From contig NZ_CP163424.1 of NCBI RefSeq assembly GCF_041429795.1, positions 248,001-312,000 of the forward strand: 64,000 bases of DNA, written 5' to 3'. A program made the translations under genes and the position numbers. Below the pieces are notes generated by a model. The model was not told the DNA's origin, searched no databases, and saw only the letters and a list, made by a program, of their open reading frames with translations. Every line of letters begins with the position of its first letter. The first letter of the stretch is position 1. This DNA is from Algimonas porphyrae. GTDB taxonomy: Bacteria > Pseudomonadota > Alphaproteobacteria > Caulobacterales > Maricaulaceae. Of this stretch, positions 32,868-40,946 are shown piece after piece.

Positions 32868-33641
32868 ATGGGCACGACACGCCAAAGCCTCGCCAATTCG
32901 CTTGTAGAGCCTGCGTCATTCCGCAAGCTTGCCGCTCTGTCCGACATCTCGCGGGAGGATCTTCAAGCCCTCTCTTCCATGCCCTATACCGACATTGCGG
33001 TGGGGCGTAATCGCTCCCTGATCGATCCGCTCAACGATCCGCTTAAATGTTTCGTCGTTGCGACGGGCTGGGCCTATTCCTTTGCGGTCATGCCCAATGG
33101 GCGGCGCCAAGTCTTTCACATCTATCAGGAAGGCGATTTGATCGGCTTCGAGGATCTGATGTTCAGCCGGAACGTCTTTCCGGTGACGGCCATCACGAAT
33201 TGCCGGCTTGCCAATATCAGAACGGACCAGATGCGGTCCTTTCTGTCACGCAATGTCCGACTGTCATCCTATCTCTATGCGATGAGCAACCTCAATCAGG
33301 TTGTCCTGATGGACCGCATGCAGGCGATTGCTCGGCTCGAGCCCAAGCCACGCATGGCGCACTTCCTGCTAGAACTGATGAGCCGGACGCGGGTAACGTC
33401 CGATTTCCATAATGGTCGCCGGGGCCGGTCCATGGTTTTCAACCTGCCAATGCGCCAGGGTCTGATTGCCGATTGTGCCGGGATGAGCGCTGTTCATGTC
33501 TCCCGCACACTGTCCTGGTTTGTCGAGGACGGTCTGATCTCACGCCCGGCACGCCATATTTTCGAAGTGCATGATGAACAGCGTCTGCTAGATATGAGCG
33601 GCTTCAAGAACCGCTACGAGACCATTACACGCATGAATTGA
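32868..33641 (+). CDS. Crp/Fnr-family transcriptional regulator (1)
   Basis: A 257-residue regulator. An N-terminal cyclic-nucleotide-binding-like barrel (about 20-130) includes FVVATGWAYSFAVMPNGRRQVFHIYQEGDLIGFEDL. A long dimer helix (VVLMDRMQAIARLEPKPRMAHFLLELM) leads to the winged helix with MRQGLIADCAGMSAVHVSRTLSWFVEDGLI. It lacks the N-terminal Cys cluster of oxygen-sensing FNR and clear cAMP contacts, so the signal is unknown. First of four family members in this 8-kb signalling region. Confidence 0.9.
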   Translation: MGTTRQSLANSLVEPASFRKLAALSDISREDLQALSSMPYTDIAVGRNRSLIDPLNDPLKCFVVATGWAYSFAVMPNGRRQVFHIYQEGDLIGFEDLMFSRNVFPVTAITNCRLANIRTDQMRSFLSRNVRLSSYLYAMSNLNQVVLMDRMQAIARLEPKPRMAHFLLELMSRTRVTSDFHNGRRGRSMVFNLPMRQGLIADCAGMSAVHVSRTLSWFVEDGLISRPARHIFEVHDEQRLLDMSGFKNRYETITRMN

Positions 33642-33803
33642 CACGACCATCGGCTGCAGAGCTCACGCCGCATTGCTTTTTGATCCTGCGGCGCCTCTGA
33701 AATCTTATTATCGATTAAACCATTGCAATTGTTGACTGCAGGCAATCTGCGAGACTTAACGTGTTATAATGACACTCGCCTGATTTTACATCATGGGAGC
33801 CGA

Positions 33804-34622
33804 ATGCAGCGCAGTTTGGACGGAAACTGCTTCGGGAGACGACAGTACCAGACCATGCATCCGCTTATTCGTAAAATTTCTCATTTCGCCGATATTTCGG
33901 CTGACGAAGCCGATATGCTTCTTGGGCTGTTCAGCCATGAACAGGCTTATGCCGACGGTGATGCAGTCTTCTCGGCCGATACAGAGCAGTCGACCTTCTT
34001 CGTTGTTTTGGAGGGGTGGTTCTATTCCTTTTCAATCCTGCCGGACGGCGCGCGTCAAATTCACGATGTCTACCATGCCGGTGACGTGATCGGCCTCGAT
34101 CATCTATCCTGGTCCCGATCGACGATCTCCGTCTCAGCCGCGTCAGATGGCCGCCTCGCAGCCGCCCCACTGACACCTGCCCGGCGTGTCATGTTCCGCA
34201 ATCCCCATCTCTCCGCGATCTTCTACAGCCTTCACATGCTGACGAATGTTCAGTTGCTGGACCGGATCACGGCGATTGCCCGGCTTGGGGCCTATGAAAG
34301 CCTGGCCTATTTCCTGTCAGACGCGACGGCGCGGCGACGCATGATTTCCGCCGACTACCCGTCTGAACTCTACTTGCCTTTGTCACAGAAATTCATCGCC
34401 GACTGCCTCGGCCTGAGTGCCGTTCATGTCTCCCGGCAATTCAACAAGCTGATCGAGAACAAGCTGTTGCGGCGGCTTTCGCGCTCCTCTATCCAGATTC
34501 TGGATGAAGACCGTCTTCGCAAGATCAGTGATTATCAGGACCGCTATGCCAATCTTGATCGTCACCGCTTCGAACGCGAGCTCGGACGGGCACTGGCGGG
34601 GCATCATGGACAGAGCGAATAG
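33804..34622 (+). CDS. Crp/Fnr-family transcriptional regulator (2)
   Basis: A 272-residue regulator related to the one upstream (shared WFYSFSILPDGARQIHDVYHAGDVIGLDHL pattern and SAVHVSR recognition helix). The start at 33804 has GGGAG 4 bases before it; the domain homology begins at a second ATG, 33855, which is the alternative. The C-terminus is extended by an Arg-rich tail (RFERELGRAL). No Fe-S Cys set. A TATAAT lies at 33765-33770. It is 9 bases ahead of the LOV gene, so the two are probably one operon. Confidence 0.88.
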   Translation: MQRSLDGNCFGRRQYQTMHPLIRKISHFADISADEADMLLGLFSHEQAYADGDAVFSADTEQSTFFVVLEGWFYSFSILPDGARQIHDVYHAGDVIGLDHLSWSRSTISVSAASDGRLAAAPLTPARRVMFRNPHLSAIFYSLHMLTNVQLLDRITAIARLGAYESLAYFLSDATARRRMISADYPSELYLPLSQKFIADCLGLSAVHVSRQFNKLIENKLLRRLSRSSIQILDEDRLRKISDYQDRYANLDRHRFERELGRALAGHHGQSE

Positions 34623-34631
34623 ACAAGGCCG

Positions 34632-35675
34632 ATGAGCACGACACGAGATATCGTGTTGGATGCCGATCCGCCCGATCTTCGTATGGATATGTCGGGCTTC
34701 TTCCGCACGACATCCATTTCGTTCGTCGTGGCCGACCCGAATCTGCCCGATACCCCTATTGTCTACGTCAATCGCGCCTTTGAGCTGACGACGGGTTATT
34801 CCTACCGTTACGTGGTGGGTCGCAATTGCCGTTTTCTTCAGGGACCGGATACGGACCCTGACGCTGTCAAGAATATTGCCATCGCCCTGTCACGCGGCGA
34901 AGGCGTGCGCCAGAAACTGCTCAACTACCGGGCGGACGGCTCATCCTTCATCAATGATCTGGTCATCACGCCGATCCACGATGCCGACGGGAAACTGGCT
35001 TATTTCGTCGGCGTGCAGCGCGAATTGCAGCCCAACGATAATGGCCTTCAGGATGAATTGAGAAGCAAGACGATCGATATTGTCCGGCAGCAGGTGCAGA
35101 TCCACCTCTCCGTCGTCATGGAGTTATCCCGGCTTCATGCCGATGACGAGCGTGACGATGGCCCAGTTGATTTCGTCAGCCTGCTGCGCCGACTGGAAAT
35201 CCTCGATCTTCTTTATGCCAATTTGAATGAGAGTTCGCTGCGCAAGGAATTGCTCGATGCCGGGGCCTATGTCAGCCAGATCGCGGCGAAACTCGTCGCC
35301 AAAAGACCGCAGGCCGGCATCCGTATCAATATCTCCACCGAGCCCGCGATCGTTCCACTGGATATTGCCGTACGTCTGGGGGTCGTCTTGGCCGAGTTGT
35401 TGGAATCGTCTCTGGAAACCTCCTTTTCAGGCATGGATTCCGGAAATCTGGAAGTGTCGCTCGCCAATCTCGATGACCGGCTGGAACTAACCGTTTTCGA
35501 TGATGGTCACGGGGATCCGAGTGCTTCTGAGTGGCTTGAAAGCGGAGACTTGACGTTGCGGGTCATCCGGCGGCTTCTCGATGATTTGCACGCCACCATC
35601 CGTGCGCCAGCCGTTGATCAGGGTCGCGAAATTATTGTCTCCGTTCCACTCGGACCGCGTGACATGCGGCCATAG
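34632..35675 (+). CDS. LOV-domain protein with degenerate histidine kinase half
   Basis: A 347-residue protein. Residues about 25-135 form a PAS/LOV domain with the flavin-adduct motif GRNCRFLQG (Cys66), an NRAFELTTGY start and the YFVGVQREL end, so it should sense blue light through FMN. The following part resembles HisKA_2/HWE kinases in layout, but the phospho-acceptor His region reads RQQVQIHLSVV and the ATP N-box reads LAELLESSLETSF, lacking the essential Asn. A G-box-like DDGHGDP remains. It is therefore likely a sensor without its own kinase activity. Follows a Crp/Fnr gene by 9 bases. Confidence 0.85.
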   Translation: MSTTRDIVLDADPPDLRMDMSGFFRTTSISFVVADPNLPDTPIVYVNRAFELTTGYSYRYVVGRNCRFLQGPDTDPDAVKNIAIALSRGEGVRQKLLNYRADGSSFINDLVITPIHDADGKLAYFVGVQRELQPNDNGLQDELRSKTIDIVRQQVQIHLSVVMELSRLHADDERDDGPVDFVSLLRRLEILDLLYANLNESSLRKELLDAGAYVSQIAAKLVAKRPQAGIRINISTEPAIVPLDIAVRLGVVLAELLESSLETSFSGMDSGNLEVSLANLDDRLELTVFDDGHGDPSASEWLESGDLTLRVIRRLLDDLHATIRAPAVDQGREIIVSVPLGPRDMRP

Positions 35676-35714
35676 GCAGATTGCGGGACAGGCCTTGGCC
35701 TGCGCGAAAGCGGA

Positions 35715-36428
35715 TTAGTCGACCGGATCCAGCGACATGCCGCAAATCTCCGACAAAGCGTCGATATCTCTGACAATGATGCGGTTGCGGCCATAGTCGA
35801 TCAGACCTTCCTTTCGGAATGCGCTCATCAGCTTGGAAATCGATACATTCGTTAGTCCCAGCATATTGCCGATTTCTTCCTGCGTCATAGGCAGGCGGAT
35901 TGTCTCGTCCACGCCGCTGACACCAGCCTGACGCGCGACTTCGACGATGCGCAGCATGGCGAAGGCCAGTCGGCCTCGTGCAGGTAGCTGGCCCAAGGCC
36001 GTAATGTGGCGCTGCATGCGTTGTGACTGATGCGAGAGCGCACGGTTAAGCCATTGCGAGAGCTTTTCGTCCTGCGCGCACAGGGCTTGTAGCTGGTCGA
36101 TCTCGATCCGATAGGCGCGCACATTTTGGAGTGCGATCGCTGCATAATCGTCCTGGTTCAAGCTTGTCAGGCGCGTGATTCCGGCGATGCTGCCCGGCCC
36201 GAGTATATCCAGAATCTGCGTATCGCCAGTTTCGATCGACAGTTTCGAAACGGCCCAACCCTCGGCGATCAGATAGACGGCATCCAGCGTCTGGCCACTC
36301 GCAATGATGGACCGACCGCGATCGATCGTCGCCAGTCTGTGCCGCGAAAGGGGCAGGCCGGCGACCAGTTCTTCAGGCAGGGTTGATAGAACAGGGTCCG
36401 TTTGATGGGTGTCGTATGCGAGTGTCAT
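35715..36428 (-). CDS. Crp/Fnr-family transcriptional regulator (3)
   Basis: A 237-residue regulator on the opposite strand, convergent with the LOV gene. The barrel contains VYLIAEGWAVSKLSIETGDTQILDILGPGSIAGI, and the winged helix reads LPMTQEEIGNMLGLTNVSISKLMSAFRKEGLI, a TQEEIG type different from members 1 and 2 but like member 4. A consensus EcfG-type promoter (GGAAC-N17-CGTT) lies 75-100 bases upstream and an inverted repeat lies 41 bases upstream, a possible autoregulatory site. Confidence 0.9.
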   Translation of the reverse strand: MTLAYDTHQTDPVLSTLPEELVAGLPLSRHRLATIDRGRSIIASGQTLDAVYLIAEGWAVSKLSIETGDTQILDILGPGSIAGITRLTSLNQDDYAAIALQNVRAYRIEIDQLQALCAQDEKLSQWLNRALSHQSQRMQRHITALGQLPARGRLAFAMLRIVEVARQAGVSGVDETIRLPMTQEEIGNMLGLTNVSISKLMSAFRKEGLIDYGRNRIIVRDIDALSEICGMSLDPVD

Positions 36429-36468
36429 ATAAAATAGCGCTCAGGTAGAATGCTGCGAAATCGATCGG

Positions 36469-36491
36469 ACAGATTTTTGTAAAAAGTCTGT
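36469..36491. promoter_or_regulatory. Inverted repeat upstream of Crp/Fnr gene (3)
   Basis: A 23-base near-perfect dyad, ACAGATTTTT and AAAAAGTCTGT around a short centre, about 41 bases upstream of the start at 36428. Between the EcfG-type promoter and the gene, it could be an operator or an mRNA hairpin. Binding partner unknown. Confidence 0.4.
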
Positions 36492-36502
36492 TTCATGATC
36501 AC

Positions 36503-36528
36503 AACGTCCTAATCGCCGGTTCCGTTCC
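36503..36528 (-). promoter_or_regulatory. EcfG-type promoter for Crp/Fnr gene (3)
   Basis: On the minus strand GGAAC (36528-36524), 17 bases, then CGTT (36506-36503): an exact match to the sigma EcfG general-stress consensus. A second GGAAC overlaps the spacer. The expected transcript start is about 70 bases ahead of the gene. Confidence 0.7.
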
Positions 36529-36638
36529 ATGAGCGCCTTGAGCCCCGAACACGCGGGGTGGCAACCATACCGAGTTGCAAGGACGCCTGAAGCCAGGAAA
36601 CAGAGTGTCCGATCGATGGTTGCGGTCGATAAAGAGCC

Positions 36639-36839
36639 TTAGGCGAAGCGGTTCCCTTCGGGCAGGTCCTGTTCGCCGGCTCCACCACTATCGGTTTCGC
36701 TATCGTCGTTGAGCGCGGGGGAGCTGGTCATGTCAGCGGCATTGGCTTCATCCCGCATCGCCTTGGCATCGGCTTCGGTCGATTTGTCCGTCGTCTTTTT
36801 CGTCAGATCGGGGTCGGTCTTACTGGCACACATGGTCAT
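36639..36839 (-). CDS. Small acidic, probably disordered protein
   Basis: A 66-residue protein of low complexity, very rich in Asp, Glu, Thr and Ser (MTMCASKTDPDLTKKTTDKS at the start, later SETDSGGAGEQDLPEGNRF). No fold or family is recognised. An EcfG-like promoter (GGAAC-N17-CGTA) lies 27-52 bases upstream, and a stress-induced small protein is the most natural reading. Coding character is moderate; the single open frame and the promoter position support it. Confidence 0.55.
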   Translation of the reverse strand: MTMCASKTDPDLTKKTTDKSTEADAKAMRDEANAADMTSSPALNDDSETDSGGAGEQDLPEGNRFA

Positions 36840-36865
36840 AGCCTCTCGTTGAACGTCTCCAACTC

Positions 36866-36891
36866 TACGCCTGCCCGGCAGAACTTGTTCC
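36866..36891 (-). promoter_or_regulatory. Probable EcfG-type promoter for the small acidic gene
   Basis: Minus strand: GGAAC (36891-36887), 17 bases, CGTA (36869-36866). One base from the CGTT consensus. It would start transcription about 20 bases upstream of the coding start at 36839. Confidence 0.5.
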
Positions 36892-36945
36892 CGTCAGCCC
36901 AAGGCATACTCTCAACTCCGGTGCGCGCCTGCGGCCCAAAAGGGT

Positions 36946-37233
36946 CTAGGCCAGCAGGGATAATTGTCCCTGCGACGTCTGGGACGCGTCCATGTGCGGT
37001 CCAGTCTGCGAACCCGTGTGTGATCCGGGGTGCGATCCCGCCATCAGCGCCGACGGCATAACCAGCGTTCGCGACGATGCAGTCGAGGCCTGACGCCAGC
37101 TATAGACCTTGGCCAGAGCCGAGCCGGGCGGACAATACCAGCGTTTGACAGACGCGTCCCAACGCGCACCGAGCCGTTTTGCCATCTCGCGGTCTTTATA
37201 GGCCACATTGATATATCGTTTTGTCACAGCCAT
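36946..37233 (-). CDS. DUF5710 domain protein
   Basis: A 95-residue protein. The first about 45 residues are a DUF5710 domain, with YINVAYKDREMAKRLGARWD followed by VKRWYCPPGSALAKVYSW. This small domain is common in phage, plasmid and DNA-metabolism proteins and is thought to bind nucleic acid or act as an adaptor. The remainder is a low-complexity tail with repeated GSH/GSQ/GPH steps, no known function. The start at 37233 was chosen as the first Met of the domain. Confidence 0.78.
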   Translation of the reverse strand: MAVTKRYINVAYKDREMAKRLGARWDASVKRWYCPPGSALAKVYSWRQASTASSRTLVMPSALMAGSHPGSHTGSQTGPHMDASQTSQGQLSLLA

Positions 37234-37436
37234 TCCTTTCAAGACAGGAACAGAACATAATAAGAACATCTGTCCGTTACAAGGAATAAATTCTTAAGCT
37301 CTGCCAATGTGAACCCCCTGAAACTGGCTGAGCTAAGGGCGACGAGACCACTTCCGGTCTTTGATCTATTTATAATTCAGCTATCTATCGATCCTTGGCC
37401 CGTGTATGGTCACCACTGGCCACCGGCGATATCATC

Positions 37437-37832
37437 ATGACTGAAGACGCGGCAGATTTAGGCAATAAACGCATACGGGTTCTCGTTGTCGAAGACGAAC
37501 CGCTGATCGCGTTCGATCTGATATCGGAAATCGAATCCGGCAATCACGACGTCGTCGGCCAATGCGCGACGGCGGCCAAGGCCATATCCCTGGCCGAGAC
37601 ACTCAAGCCCGACATCATCGTCATGGATATCGGCCTGATGGGTCAGGCAGACGGGCTGGATGCAGCTCGCGAAATTCGCACACGGTTCGGCATTGGCTGT
37701 ATTTTCGTTTCGGCGACACTGGACCGCGTCGCGCCCGAACAGTGGCATGAAATCGATCCCGTTGCGCTTATTCGCAAACCCTATCGCGATGACGCTCTGG
37801 ACAAGGCGATTTCGCGGGCGGTCACGGGGTAG
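37437..37832 (+). CDS. Single-domain response regulator (receiver)
   Basis: A 131-residue protein that is only a receiver domain: acidic pair in VVEDEP, phospho-acceptor Asp in IIVMDIGL, Ser/Thr switch in VSAT, Lys in IRKPYRDD. No output domain follows. Stand-alone receivers of this type (LovR, for example) work beside LOV/HWE kinases as phosphate sinks or modulators of the general stress response. Located between a LOV protein and two HWE-type genes, it is a good candidate acceptor for them. The start at 37437 gives a short leader. Confidence 0.88.
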   Translation: MTEDAADLGNKRIRVLVVEDEPLIAFDLISEIESGNHDVVGQCATAAKAISLAETLKPDIIVMDIGLMGQADGLDAAREIRTRFGIGCIFVSATLDRVAPEQWHEIDPVALIRKPYRDDALDKAISRAVTG

Positions 37833-37985
37833 GCGCGATTCCAGTGAAATCTTGATCTGAATCGCCTAAACCGGCCGTATTCCGCTTGATATTTTAACAT
37901 CAGATAATATTTAGCGCGTCTCAGGGGAGCAGACTGACACGGTCCAGACATCACCGTCTGGTCGCAAAAATGCGAGTGTGCCCAG

Positions 37986-38729
37986 ATGGACGATGCGAAA
38001 TTACAGCTGCAAGCTCTTTTGCCGACAGCCATCCGTCATCGGCCCTGGATCGATTCCGTTTCCCTGCGCGCACATGAAATTGATGGCCATCAGGCCCTGA
38101 TCCGGGCTGGTGGATCGCCACAAAGGCTCTATTTCGTCGCCAAGGGATGGTTGAGTGGCTCGACCCTATTGTCGCAAAAACTCCGTCCGATCAGCAGCCT
38201 GCATATTCGCGGTGACACGATCGGCCTGACCTGGCTGTCCGCCCCTAATCCGGTCGAAGACGTTTCGACACTGACGCCCGCCGAACTGATCAGTGTCCCG
38301 ATGGCGGAATTCCGTGACTGGCTCAGCCGGGATACCGTTCTTGGCGAATTCGTCATGCGCGAAATCGTGCGCAGCATGATGAACCTGCAGATCATGTCCG
38401 CCGTCGCGGGTCACATGAAGGCCCCGGACCGGCTGGCCTATTTCCTGTTTATCATGCTCAAGCGCTGCCGCCGCAGTTTCAACACATCGCTGACCACGCT
38501 TCAGCTGCCCATGACGCAGGAAGAGATCGGTCGTCTTCTGGGGCTGACCAACGTGTCGGTCAACCGGGCCTTCCGGTCGCTGGAGGCGGAGGGCCTGATT
38601 CAGACGGGTCGCCAGACAGTCATGTTTCACAATGAGGCTGCGTTTGCCGAACGGTTCGACCTGGATACGCGTCCTGCACTGATCGACCAGCTTGTCGGGG
38701 CTCAACTCGACCTGACGGATGCCGCCTGA
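37986..38729 (+). CDS. Crp/Fnr-family transcriptional regulator (4)
   Basis: A 247-residue regulator. Its barrel includes LYFVAKGWLSGSTLLSQKLRPISSLHIRGDTIGLTWL, and the winged helix reads LPMTQEEIGRLLGLTNVSVNRAFRSLEAEGLI, closest to member 3. No Fe-S Cys cluster or cAMP signature. It sits between the receiver and the HWE pair, all on the plus strand. A repeat of A/T-rich half sites (around 37890-37915) lies upstream but is not a convincing operator. Confidence 0.9.
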   Translation: MDDAKLQLQALLPTAIRHRPWIDSVSLRAHEIDGHQALIRAGGSPQRLYFVAKGWLSGSTLLSQKLRPISSLHIRGDTIGLTWLSAPNPVEDVSTLTPAELISVPMAEFRDWLSRDTVLGEFVMREIVRSMMNLQIMSAVAGHMKAPDRLAYFLFIMLKRCRRSFNTSLTTLQLPMTQEEIGRLLGLTNVSVNRAFRSLEAEGLIQTGRQTVMFHNEAAFAERFDLDTRPALIDQLVGAQLDLTDAA

Positions 38730-38823: not shown

Positions 38824-39960
38824 ATGACGACCCCGCCAGCTCACGATCTGGCGACATGGCAGACAGCGTCAGAGGATCACACCGTGCCGGACGATCAAGA
38901 CGGACAGCAGACGGATATCGCCGCCAGAGAGCAGCTGGAGCGACGGCGACTGGCACGCCTGATCGAAGCGCTGCCCATCTTCTCCGGGCTGCTCTCGGTC
39001 GATGGTCAGTTAATGGAAACGCACCCGCAAACCCGTGAAGCCTTTCTGTGGGACCTTCCCAGTTTTGCCTATGACCATGACTCGATCACGCAAATCGTCG
39101 ATCTCTGCGAGCGGGCCGCAGCCGGTGAACGCGTGCAGATCGAACGCCCCTATCGTCGCTCGACTACGACAGCCGCTGATCAGTTCGGGCGGGGGTTGCT
39201 GACGCTGACACCCGTCCGCGACGAAGGCGATCATATCGAGGAACTGACTGTCACCTTGATCGACTGCGACGATAATGGGCTGGGTCTTCGCGACGGACAG
39301 GTTCGAAACCGCCTGGCTACGACCAATCTGCGGATCGAGAACATGCTGAGCCTGGCGCAGACCGTGATCGAGGCCTCCGCCGATGACATACCGACGCGTC
39401 AATCGCGCGATCAACTCCGCGACCGTCTGACCCTGAGGCTGGATGCACTCGCCAGCGTGATCGATATCATCAGCGACCCGGAACGCCAGGACTGGCCCCT
39501 GCAGGCGTTGATCCGCATGTTGTGCGAAGACCTGCCCGACGCCTTGCAGCAGGGCCGGTTGCAGCTGAACGAAATAGACGGCGACATAGCGATCGAACAT
39601 GTCCCGCTCATGACCCTTCTATTGTTCGAACTGGTCAGTAATGCGCGTCGCTTCGGGGCCTGGCGCGATGACGGCAAAGGGCGAGCGGGCACAGTTTCCA
39701 TCCAATCGGATGTCGTCGACGATCATGACGGGCGGACGTTACGATTGCACTGGACGGAAGATGGCGGCCCCCCCGTGCCCGCCGACTTGGGCCGTCGCTT
39801 CGGCTTCACCTTGGCTGAGCGCCTGTTCCCGCAGATCACTGGCGGGACGGCGCGTCTGCTGAACGCCGAAGACGGGCTGTCCTGGACGTTCGAACTCCCG
39901 GTCCGGGCTCTGGATGTGCCGCTGGCGAGCGATTTCGGCTTTGACGGTTATCCCGCATGA
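38824..39960 (+). CDS. HWE-type histidine kinase lacking the phospho-acceptor His
   Basis: A 378-residue protein with an N-terminal PAS-like region (LPIFSGLLSVDGQLMETHP, residues about 50-150) and an HWE kinase C-terminus. The dimerisation box reads NLRIENMLSLAQTVI: Leu169 stands where HWE kinases have His (N-H-R-V-K-N), and Glu replaces the following Lys. The ATP-binding half looks intact, with FELVSNARRFGAW (Glu269, Asn273) and the HWE motif region LHWTEDGGPPVP, GFTLAERLFP. So it should bind ATP but cannot autophosphorylate in cis. Its stop overlaps the next gene by four bases. Confidence 0.82.
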   Translation: MTTPPAHDLATWQTASEDHTVPDDQDGQQTDIAAREQLERRRLARLIEALPIFSGLLSVDGQLMETHPQTREAFLWDLPSFAYDHDSITQIVDLCERAAAGERVQIERPYRRSTTTAADQFGRGLLTLTPVRDEGDHIEELTVTLIDCDDNGLGLRDGQVRNRLATTNLRIENMLSLAQTVIEASADDIPTRQSRDQLRDRLTLRLDALASVIDIISDPERQDWPLQALIRMLCEDLPDALQQGRLQLNEIDGDIAIEHVPLMTLLLFELVSNARRFGAWRDDGKGRAGTVSIQSDVVDDHDGRTLRLHWTEDGGPPVPADLGRRFGFTLAERLFPQITGGTARLLNAEDGLSWTFELPVRALDVPLASDFGFDGYPA

Positions 39961-40946
39961 GCGGCCCTGTCATCGTCCGGCCGCGAGCCTTCCGGTCCCC
40001 AGAGCGCAAGGCGCGACTGCTGCTGGCGAGCCTGCCCATCTTCGCGGGTCTGCTGTCGAAGGACGGAACCGTTCTGGAATGTAATTTCGCGCCGCTCGGG
40101 GGGCCGCTGGATACACGACCTGACTGGATCGGGCGGCCATTCGAACGCGGGCCCTGGTGGGATTATTCCGAGGAATCACGCGCGGACATTCTGATCATGC
40201 TGGGACGCGCGCAGCGCGGCGAACGCGTCGCTCGCGAACGCCTCTATCGTCGTCCAGACGGACAGATGGGCGTTATGATGCTCACCCTCGTTCCGCTTTT
40301 TGCGCCCTATGGACAACCGGATGCGATCCTCGTCATGGCGGTCGATGTCACGGAACGACGGCGTGAGCGGGACACGGCAGAACGGATCGCCTTCGACATG
40401 GCGCACCGCTTGCGCAATAGTTTCACGATCATGCGAACCCTGGCGACACGCTCCGATCTGGAGGATACTGACGGTCGGACGGCCCTGTCCCGACGCCTGT
40501 CGCGCGTCCGTGACAGCCACAGCGTGGCCTTTCGCTATCTGTTTTTCGACGTGCCGATCCAGAATGTTGTCGAAGCGGCGATTGATGATCAGGACCGGTT
40601 GAGCCGTTATGAATTCGATCCAGTCAGCGTTCCCGTGGATTATGTGGAGATGCTGATGCTGGCGCTGGGCGAACTGGCCCGAAAAGGCGAAGCGGCAGAG
40701 CTTTTCTGCCTGCGGCGCGGCGACAGGCGGCTGCGTCTCCAGTGGCGCGAATCTACACCACGCGCGGATGCCGACTTACCGGCAGGTCTGTCACATGTGC
40801 TCGTCAAAACCATGCCGGAACAGCAGAGCGGCGGCCAGGTTCAGATCAGGAACGATCTGAACGGCTTTTTCTGGCTGTTCGATTGTCCGCTGATTCACCC
40901 CGATCTGGACGAAACGCCCACAGGTGACAACACTGCCGCGCCATAG
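39957..40946 (+). CDS. HWE-type protein with His but degenerate ATPase
   Basis: A 329-residue paralogue of the upstream gene. The PAS-like region is recognisable (LPIFAGLLSKDGTVLECNF, residues about 26-130). The dimerisation box DMAHRLRNSFTIMRTLATR retains the phospho-acceptor His150 and the Arg and Asn that follow. The ATP-binding half is eroded: the N-box reads LALGELARKGEAA with no Asn, and the G-box WRESTPRAD lacks the GGPP. It could accept phosphate but not bind ATP well. ATGA overlap couples it to the paralogue whose defects are the mirror image. Confidence 0.82.
   Translation: MSGPVIVRPRAFRSPERKARLLLASLPIFAGLLSKDGTVLECNFAPLGGPLDTRPDWIGRPFERGPWWDYSEESRADILIMLGRAQRGERVARERLYRRPDGQMGVMMLTLVPLFAPYGQPDAILVMAVDVTERRRERDTAERIAFDMAHRLRNSFTIMRTLATRSDLEDTDGRTALSRRLSRVRDSHSVAFRYLFFDVPIQNVVEAAIDDQDRLSRYEFDPVSVPVDYVEMLMLALGELARKGEAAELFCLRRGDRRLRLQWRESTPRADADLPAGLSHVLVKTMPEQQSGGQVQIRNDLNGFFWLFDCPLIHPDLDETPTGDNTAAP

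Follow-up and report, generated by a model that had tools for sequence, protein, structure and literature searches.

Two overlapping genes for HWE-type histidine kinase proteins with complementary defects in Algimonas porphyrae: a possible split kinase in one of two lineages

Background

Split histidine kinases as such are already known. In Rhodobacter sphaeroides the phospho-acceptor is carried by one and the catalytic domain by the other of two proteins, CheA3 and CheA4, neither of which autophosphorylates alone, and the authors put the share of histidine kinases that could be both split and bifunctional at up to 1.7% (PMC3591291). RT-HK of Rubellimicrobium thermophilum, an HWE/HisKA2 kinase, autophosphorylates in trans, which was tested by mixing its H-minus and N-minus mutants; many of the studied HWE/HisKA2 kinases are not dimers, EL346 being monomeric and EsxG hexameric (PMC12148442). 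PhyT (formerly PhyP) has HRxxN and a degenerate ATPase domain and takes phosphate from the single-domain receiver SdrG, and PhyK and LovK also act as phosphotransferases (PMC5898713, PMC5964349). The latter two keep their catalytic domain though its ATP-binding residues are dispensable for phosphotransfer (PMC5964349), so that a conserved catalytic domain does not prove kinase activity. In DivL of Caulobacter the His is replaced by Tyr, and the protein is a sensor of a phosphorylated receiver (PMC4211667).

In the present study we analysed two overlapping genes, A and B, located in a 64,000-nucleotide stretch of Algimonas porphyrae DNA (contig NZ_CP163424.1, positions 248,001 to 312,000 of the forward strand), which we call the window and whose own positions are given throughout, together with their orthologues in three further genomes of the genus, G058, G050 and G047. 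The H-minus/N-minus mixture made for RT-HK, likewise an HWE/HisKA2 kinase, is the natural configuration of A and B, with the difference that the halves of RT-HK were laboratory mutants of one gene, whereas A and B are natural paralogues. As with CheA3 and CheA4, acceptor and ATP site are on separate proteins in the pairs of the window and G058; those two, however, are of the CheA family and lack whole domains, while A and B are full-length HWE-type paralogues minus residues or short segments, and their joint activity is putative. Since many HWE/HisKA2 kinases are non-dimeric, an A-B heterodimer is not to be taken for granted. B is similar to PhyT in its HRxxN with a degenerate ATPase domain, and to PhyK and LovK in that the ATP-binding residues of these are dispensable, but the portions of the two reports used here mention no partner that lacks the His and has kept its ATP site (PMC5898713, PMC5964349), and PhyT is membrane-anchored whereas B starts with a PAS domain. 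The Tyr of DivL recurs in the acceptor slot of B of G050 and G047, while B of the window has His, and no split partner is mentioned in the part of the DivL report drawn on (PMC4211667). No report of such an HWE pair was found in the literature on HWE pseudokinases and heterodimers, on split or heterodimeric histidine kinases and on Algimonas histidine kinases, most subscription papers lying outside this scope.

Methods

For the comparison set, one open reading frame was taken from each of the 67 best-scoring loci of searches in the own genome, the family and the order. The frames were cut to the kinase region and repeats were removed, which provided 48 HWE relatives, a non-random sample of top matches, in addition to the eight A and B proteins. 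In the trees computed without A and without B, by a quick method, five long rows (L004, L013, L048, L056, L081) were left out as well.

Results

Domains and predicted structures

Gene A (38824..39960, + strand, 378 aa) comprises a PAS-like N-terminus, an HWE-type DHp region without His and a catalytic domain with intact N-box and FG. Gene B (39957..40946, + strand, 329 aa) comprises a PAS_4 domain, an HWE-type DHp region with His and a degenerate catalytic domain. The start of B overlaps the end of A by ATGA, an overlap already described in an earlier note made from the sequence alone and borne out by both open reading frames; it suggests that A and B are on one transcript. In a search of its own genome A finds B at E 4.7e-9. 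The HWE_HK profile of Pfam matches A of the window above its cut-off (23.9 bits vs 22.8, E 7.3e-5, profile positions 5-72 of 83), as it does A of G058 (24.9 bits, again above 22.8), and B of the window below it (15.4 bits, E 0.033); A of G050 and G047 and B of G058, G050 and G047 gave no HWE_HK match in Pfam at E 1. All four A and all four B proteins have WxE, a motif which we take to be a mark of the HWE family.

A PAS-like N-terminus had been attributed to both proteins. In B this was confirmed by a PAS_4 match at residues 24-136 (E 9.3e-12, Pfam), a span that would leave no space for a periplasmic sensor. A of the window gave no PAS match in Pfam at E 1; its PAS-like fold is read from the way it aligns to B and from its model. 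AlphaFold2 models, obtained with eight sequences (pLDDT 71.9 and pTM 0.55 for A, 77.7 and 0.68 for B), each contain elements compatible with a PAS fold, with a pair of DHp helices and with a catalytic domain. The top two PDB matches for both models are 6ph4_B and 4r3a_A, with a large full-length rmsd of 12 to 20; 5epv_B, which is the kinase region alone, aligns at an rmsd of 3.1 (A) and 3.3 (B). A profile of A and B together, compared with the PDB, gave 5epv at 1.5e-21, 6ph4 at 4e-21 and 4r3a at 1.7e-9. The Brucella LOV-HK (6PH4, 5EPV) and Erythrobacter EL346 (4R3A) are thus the closest solved relatives and best fold matches of A and B, but each is encoded by one gene, while A and B divide the H-box and the ATP site between two paralogues.

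Catalytic residues

The acceptor His, the H+1 Arg, the H+4 Asn, the N-box Glu and the N-box Asn were each present in 48 of the 48 relatives, GFG in 47 and GGP after WxE in 43. The other five have His and Asn without GGP, so a protein missing only GGP may still be active. Aligned with these proteins, A of the window has Leu169 (39328..39330, + strand) in the phospho-acceptor slot, Glu269 and Asn273 in the N-box FELVSNARRFGA (39625..39660, + strand) and GGPP at residues 314-317 (39763..39774, + strand), and its GFG box reads RFG. The alignment therefore agrees with the assignment of these residues in the earlier note, including the dimerisation box, which had been aligned by eye.

The acceptor slot of A is occupied by Leu, Ala, Asp and Ser in the window, G058, G050 and G047, respectively (His 0/4), so the search for a usable His in A ended without a candidate in any of the four orthologues. 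The N-box Glu and Asn and the FG are kept in all four. GGP is present in the window and G058 and gone in G050 and G047: after WxE, A of G058, G050 and G047 reads DGGPR, TAGRA and SGLQD, and GGPP itself is unconserved. Nine motif positions of the A catalytic domain are invariant in the four genomes, namely E, N, A, G and A of the N-box, W and E of WxE (these two being invariant in B too), and F and G. Against a background of 72 invariant among 330 ungapped columns, the hypergeometric P is 7e-7; this value, like the other P values below, is a guide, because the sites were picked from known motifs after inspection of the window and adjacent columns are not independent. The pattern, with nine motif positions fixed and an acceptor slot that holds four residues in four genomes, is beyond chance. 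At 39913-39957 of the window lies a C-terminal tail of A, poorly predicted, with a Phe-Asp-Gly that is invariant in all four orthologues and, judged from the sequence, is possibly a short docking motif.

B of the window keeps His150 as phospho-acceptor (40404..40406, + strand). Its N-box is degenerate (40671..40685, + strand), with Glu239 kept and Lys243 in the Asn slot, there is no GGP, and the GFG box aligns as GLS; the loss of the Asn and of GGPP had been pointed out in the earlier note. Across the window, G058, G050 and G047 the acceptor of B is His, His, Tyr and Tyr, and the N-box Glu slot reads E, E, A and A. The H+1 Arg and H+4 Asn are kept 4/4. No usable N-box Asn or GFG box turned up in B of any of the four genomes (0/4 for either). 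Eight of the ten columns round the acceptor are invariant (background 112/315, P 0.005), and the four H-box motif residues taken alone, with three invariant, are within background (P 0.13). HRxxN together with a degenerate ATPase domain, as in PhyT, is thus a property of B of the window and G058, and a Tyr in the acceptor slot, as in DivL, of B of G050 and G047 only. The mirrored loss that was expected in relatives stood in so far as A is without His and B without Asn and GFG in all four genomes, but the complement on the side of B, the acceptor His, is found in just two of them.

Distribution of the pair

Full-length A is present in four of 137 family genomes, and full-length B in the same ones; all four belong to the genus, for which 18 genomes were covered. 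A survey for either gene alone, which could have spoken against a two-gene unit, found neither full-length gene without the other at E 1e-10 in these 137 genomes, several of which are incomplete (listed completeness 85% for G050 and 70% for G047). Matches at this threshold came from a further six genomes for A and a further two for B, in each case to a portion of a larger open frame. Wider searches used the A and B profiles. In that of the order, for which 348 genomes were sampled evenly out of a larger set, full-length A and B were found only in G000 and G058; G047 and G050 are absent from its matches and were presumably not among the genomes drawn. The class search of 385 genomes at E 1e-25 (B) and 1e-33 (A) gave nothing beyond the window's own genome. 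Across the deepest split of the orthologues the identity of A and B is about 30-47%. Between the window and G058 it is 60% and 70% for A and B, respectively, vs 83% for the astD-like gene.

Genomic surroundings

The pair closes a block of genes, which in the window consists of three Crp/Fnr-family regulators (32868..33641, + strand; 33723..34622, + strand; 35715..36428, - strand) with a LOV/PAS protein (34632..35675, + strand), a small DUF5710 protein (36946-37269, with counterparts in G058, G050, G047 and G044), a single-domain receiver, a fourth Crp/Fnr-family regulator (37986..38729, + strand), A and B. The last regulator is directly upstream of A in all four loci. The four regulators form an array round the LOV protein and the receiver (32868-38729), and similar arrays are found in G058, G047 and G050, each of which has one additional Crp-like gene ahead of DUF5710. 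The block is flanked by what we recognise as an endonuclease-like gene on one side and as astD/astB-like genes on the other.

The receiver (response regulator; 37437..37832, + strand; the listed open reading frame starts at 37395 with TTG) is a candidate for taking phosphate from B. Only the window and G058 have it in this position, ahead of the Crp gene and A, and there the two proteins are 62-72% identical over the aligned parts; G050 and G047 have no receiver there, and their best receiver matches elsewhere are 32-34% identical. On one contig of G047 the order is DUF5710, a PepSY-like membrane gene, the Crp gene, A and B. Both contigs of G050 end with the start of the PepSY-like gene, which points to the same order. 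This gene, recognised by a sub-threshold Pfam match, lies by DUF5710 in G047 (L024 3292-3831), G044 (L144 4839-5393) and G050 (L145 8534-9082), in the place that the receiver has in the window and G058. Neither the 64-kb window nor the two searched stretches of G058 yielded it.

In G044 the same flanks enclose DUF5710-like and PepSY-like genes (L144 4461-5479), and no Crp, LOV, receiver, A or B gene of the block was detected by tblastn at E 1e-5. Three ast-region proteins place G044 with the window and G058 (99/99; astD alone 98/93), so that the block was either lost there or replaced by a block-less copy, and the DUF5710-like gene left behind means more than one deletion or, again, such a replacement. 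G059 has two of the Crp genes and a LOV protein (40% identical), without any match to A or B at E 1e-10.

The LOV protein, which is photoreceptor-like, has a histidine-kinase-like C-terminus without His and N-box Asn: in the window, Gln is in the His slot and Ser in the Asn slot, and the DDGxG box is kept. It accompanies A and B in all four genomes, and its acceptor slot reads Q, Q, H and N in the window, G058, G050 and G047 and R in G059, and its N-box Asn slot S or A in the four pair-bearing genomes and N in G059, all read by eye against a G058 paralogue with HRVKN in a region of low identity.

Origin and selection

In a tree of 56 rows A forms one clade and B another (100/99 each), and the two group together at 93/90, just below the strong mark of the tool and with a long-branch warning on the tree. 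Both clades divide into window plus G058 and G050 plus G047, and the duplication is therefore older than that split. Without A, B joins the PAS-HWE kinases L035, L037 and L049-L051 (SH-aLRT 98); without B, A joins the same kinases (SH-aLRT 95). Placed separately with the same five, A and B are probably not grouped by long-branch attraction alone. Taken together, these sequence data suggest that A and B are probably tandem duplicates of one PAS-HWE histidine kinase that have lost opposite catalytic parts, the duplication having presumably occurred in the ancestor of part of the genus.

Comparing the window with G058, we obtained dN 0.348 and dS 1.832 for A and dN 0.238 and dS 1.389 for B; for G050 and G047, dN was 0.355 and dS 0.901 (A) and dN 0.239 and dS 0.838 (B). 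The resulting dN/dS of about 0.19 and 0.39 for A and 0.17 and 0.29 for B comes from NG86 only, at a dS of 0.84 to 1.83 that is near or past saturation. Such ratios, about 0.17 to 0.39, indicate that A and B are constrained by purifying selection, though they evolve faster than the astD-like gene.

Discussion

We read the pair as a split kinase with a relay to the receiver in the window lineage and as a non-phosphorylating, DivL-like complex in the sister lineage, a proposal that we hold tentatively and rate somewhat short of an even chance. The data show the residues, the co-occurrence, the purifying selection and the grouping of A with B in the tree; what we infer concerns dimerisation, phosphotransfer, partner and output. 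A would be the ATP-binding subunit without acceptor and B the DHp/acceptor subunit without ATP site, the two being made from one transcript and most likely forming a heteromer. In the window lineage PAS input would control A, the ATP of which would phosphorylate His150 of B in trans; B would hand the phosphate to the nearby receiver, and this may act, through a step that we leave unnamed, on the regulatory block with the Crp array. In G050 and G047 the pair would persist as a signalling complex that does not phosphorylate. For the window lineage a split kinase is the most economical reading, as it accounts for the restriction of the N-box Asn and FG to A and for the His, the H+4 Asn and the nearby receiver on the side of B. 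Four features, the His and the N-box Glu of B, the GGP of A and the receiver (the last judged at this place), separate the window and G058, which have every one of them, from G050 and G047, which have none. As all four follow a single split of the tree, they amount to one contrast and not to four.

The same contrast limits the proposal. An acceptor on one protein and an ATP site on the other, as put forward earlier, hold for the window and G058 but not for G050 and G047, where neither slot has a His and the acceptor of B is Tyr. The claim of an obligate His-based two-gene kinase thus fails as a function of the whole family. The N-box of A is equally conserved in these two genomes, and its ATP binding there has to serve something besides phosphorylation of that His; the same may be so in the window. 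On the sequence evidence, a two-gene kinase is a plausible reading of two of the four known pairs, while the other two contradict it as a general rule.

The main rival, on balance unlikely in our judgement, makes B a PhyT/PhyK-like histidine phosphotransferase (or phosphatase), which would exchange phosphate with the nearby receiver and be charged by another kinase of the cell, while A would be its regulatory partner, binding ATP but not phosphorylating B. HRxxN and a degenerate ATPase domain are united in B of the window and G058 as in PhyT, the receiver is in the same block, and a further HWE kinase of the genome, L002 (near genome position 2794715-2795293), has both His and Asn in place. 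Such a role of B would, however, leave unexplained both the nine invariant motif positions of A beside its freely varying His slot and the fact that A and B are always found together. The sister lineage speaks for another alternative, which we consider quite unlikely as an account of all genomes: A and B might both be pseudokinases and form a DivL-like pair whose DHp bundle serves to sense or bind a phosphorylated receiver or another kinase, with no phosphotransfer in any genome and with His150 of B as a residue yet to be lost. In G050 and G047 the genes are intact and constrained without His in either slot, the acceptor of B is Tyr between conserved flanks, and DivL likewise has Tyr (PMC4211667). 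The LOV protein of the block is itself without His in three and without N-box Asn in four of the four genomes. A pure scaffold, on the other hand, would need none of the features that the window lineage keeps together, that is the His, the Glu of B, the GGP of A and the receiver.

Simple decay, in which A and B are dying duplicates and their complementarity is coincidental, is disfavoured and appears very improbable, in line with the opinion of the earlier note. It could account for the evolution of A and B at a faster rate than the astD-like gene and for the absence of the entire block from G044. It is at odds with the open frames in all four genomes, with the low dN/dS, and with motif positions of A that are invariant and H-box flanks of B that are conserved at the low identity seen over the deepest split.

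A wider history can be sketched for the split kinase, which we regard as rather doubtful in its full form: a natural obligate two-gene HWE kinase would have arisen by duplication and reciprocal loss, and in one lineage a Tyr would later have replaced the acceptor His, with the ATP-binding subunit retained. The pair there would be a non-phosphorylating ATP switch, or A would phosphorylate a Tyr on a histidine-kinase fold.

Should our reading of the pair be right, it would be a natural counterpart of the laboratory H-minus/N-minus complementation, and it would show a kinase of like subunits turning into an obligate heteromer after duplication, with the sister lineage presenting the same pair after loss of the acceptor. 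The pair makes the question of cis versus trans phosphorylation in HWE kinases testable without engineered mutants.
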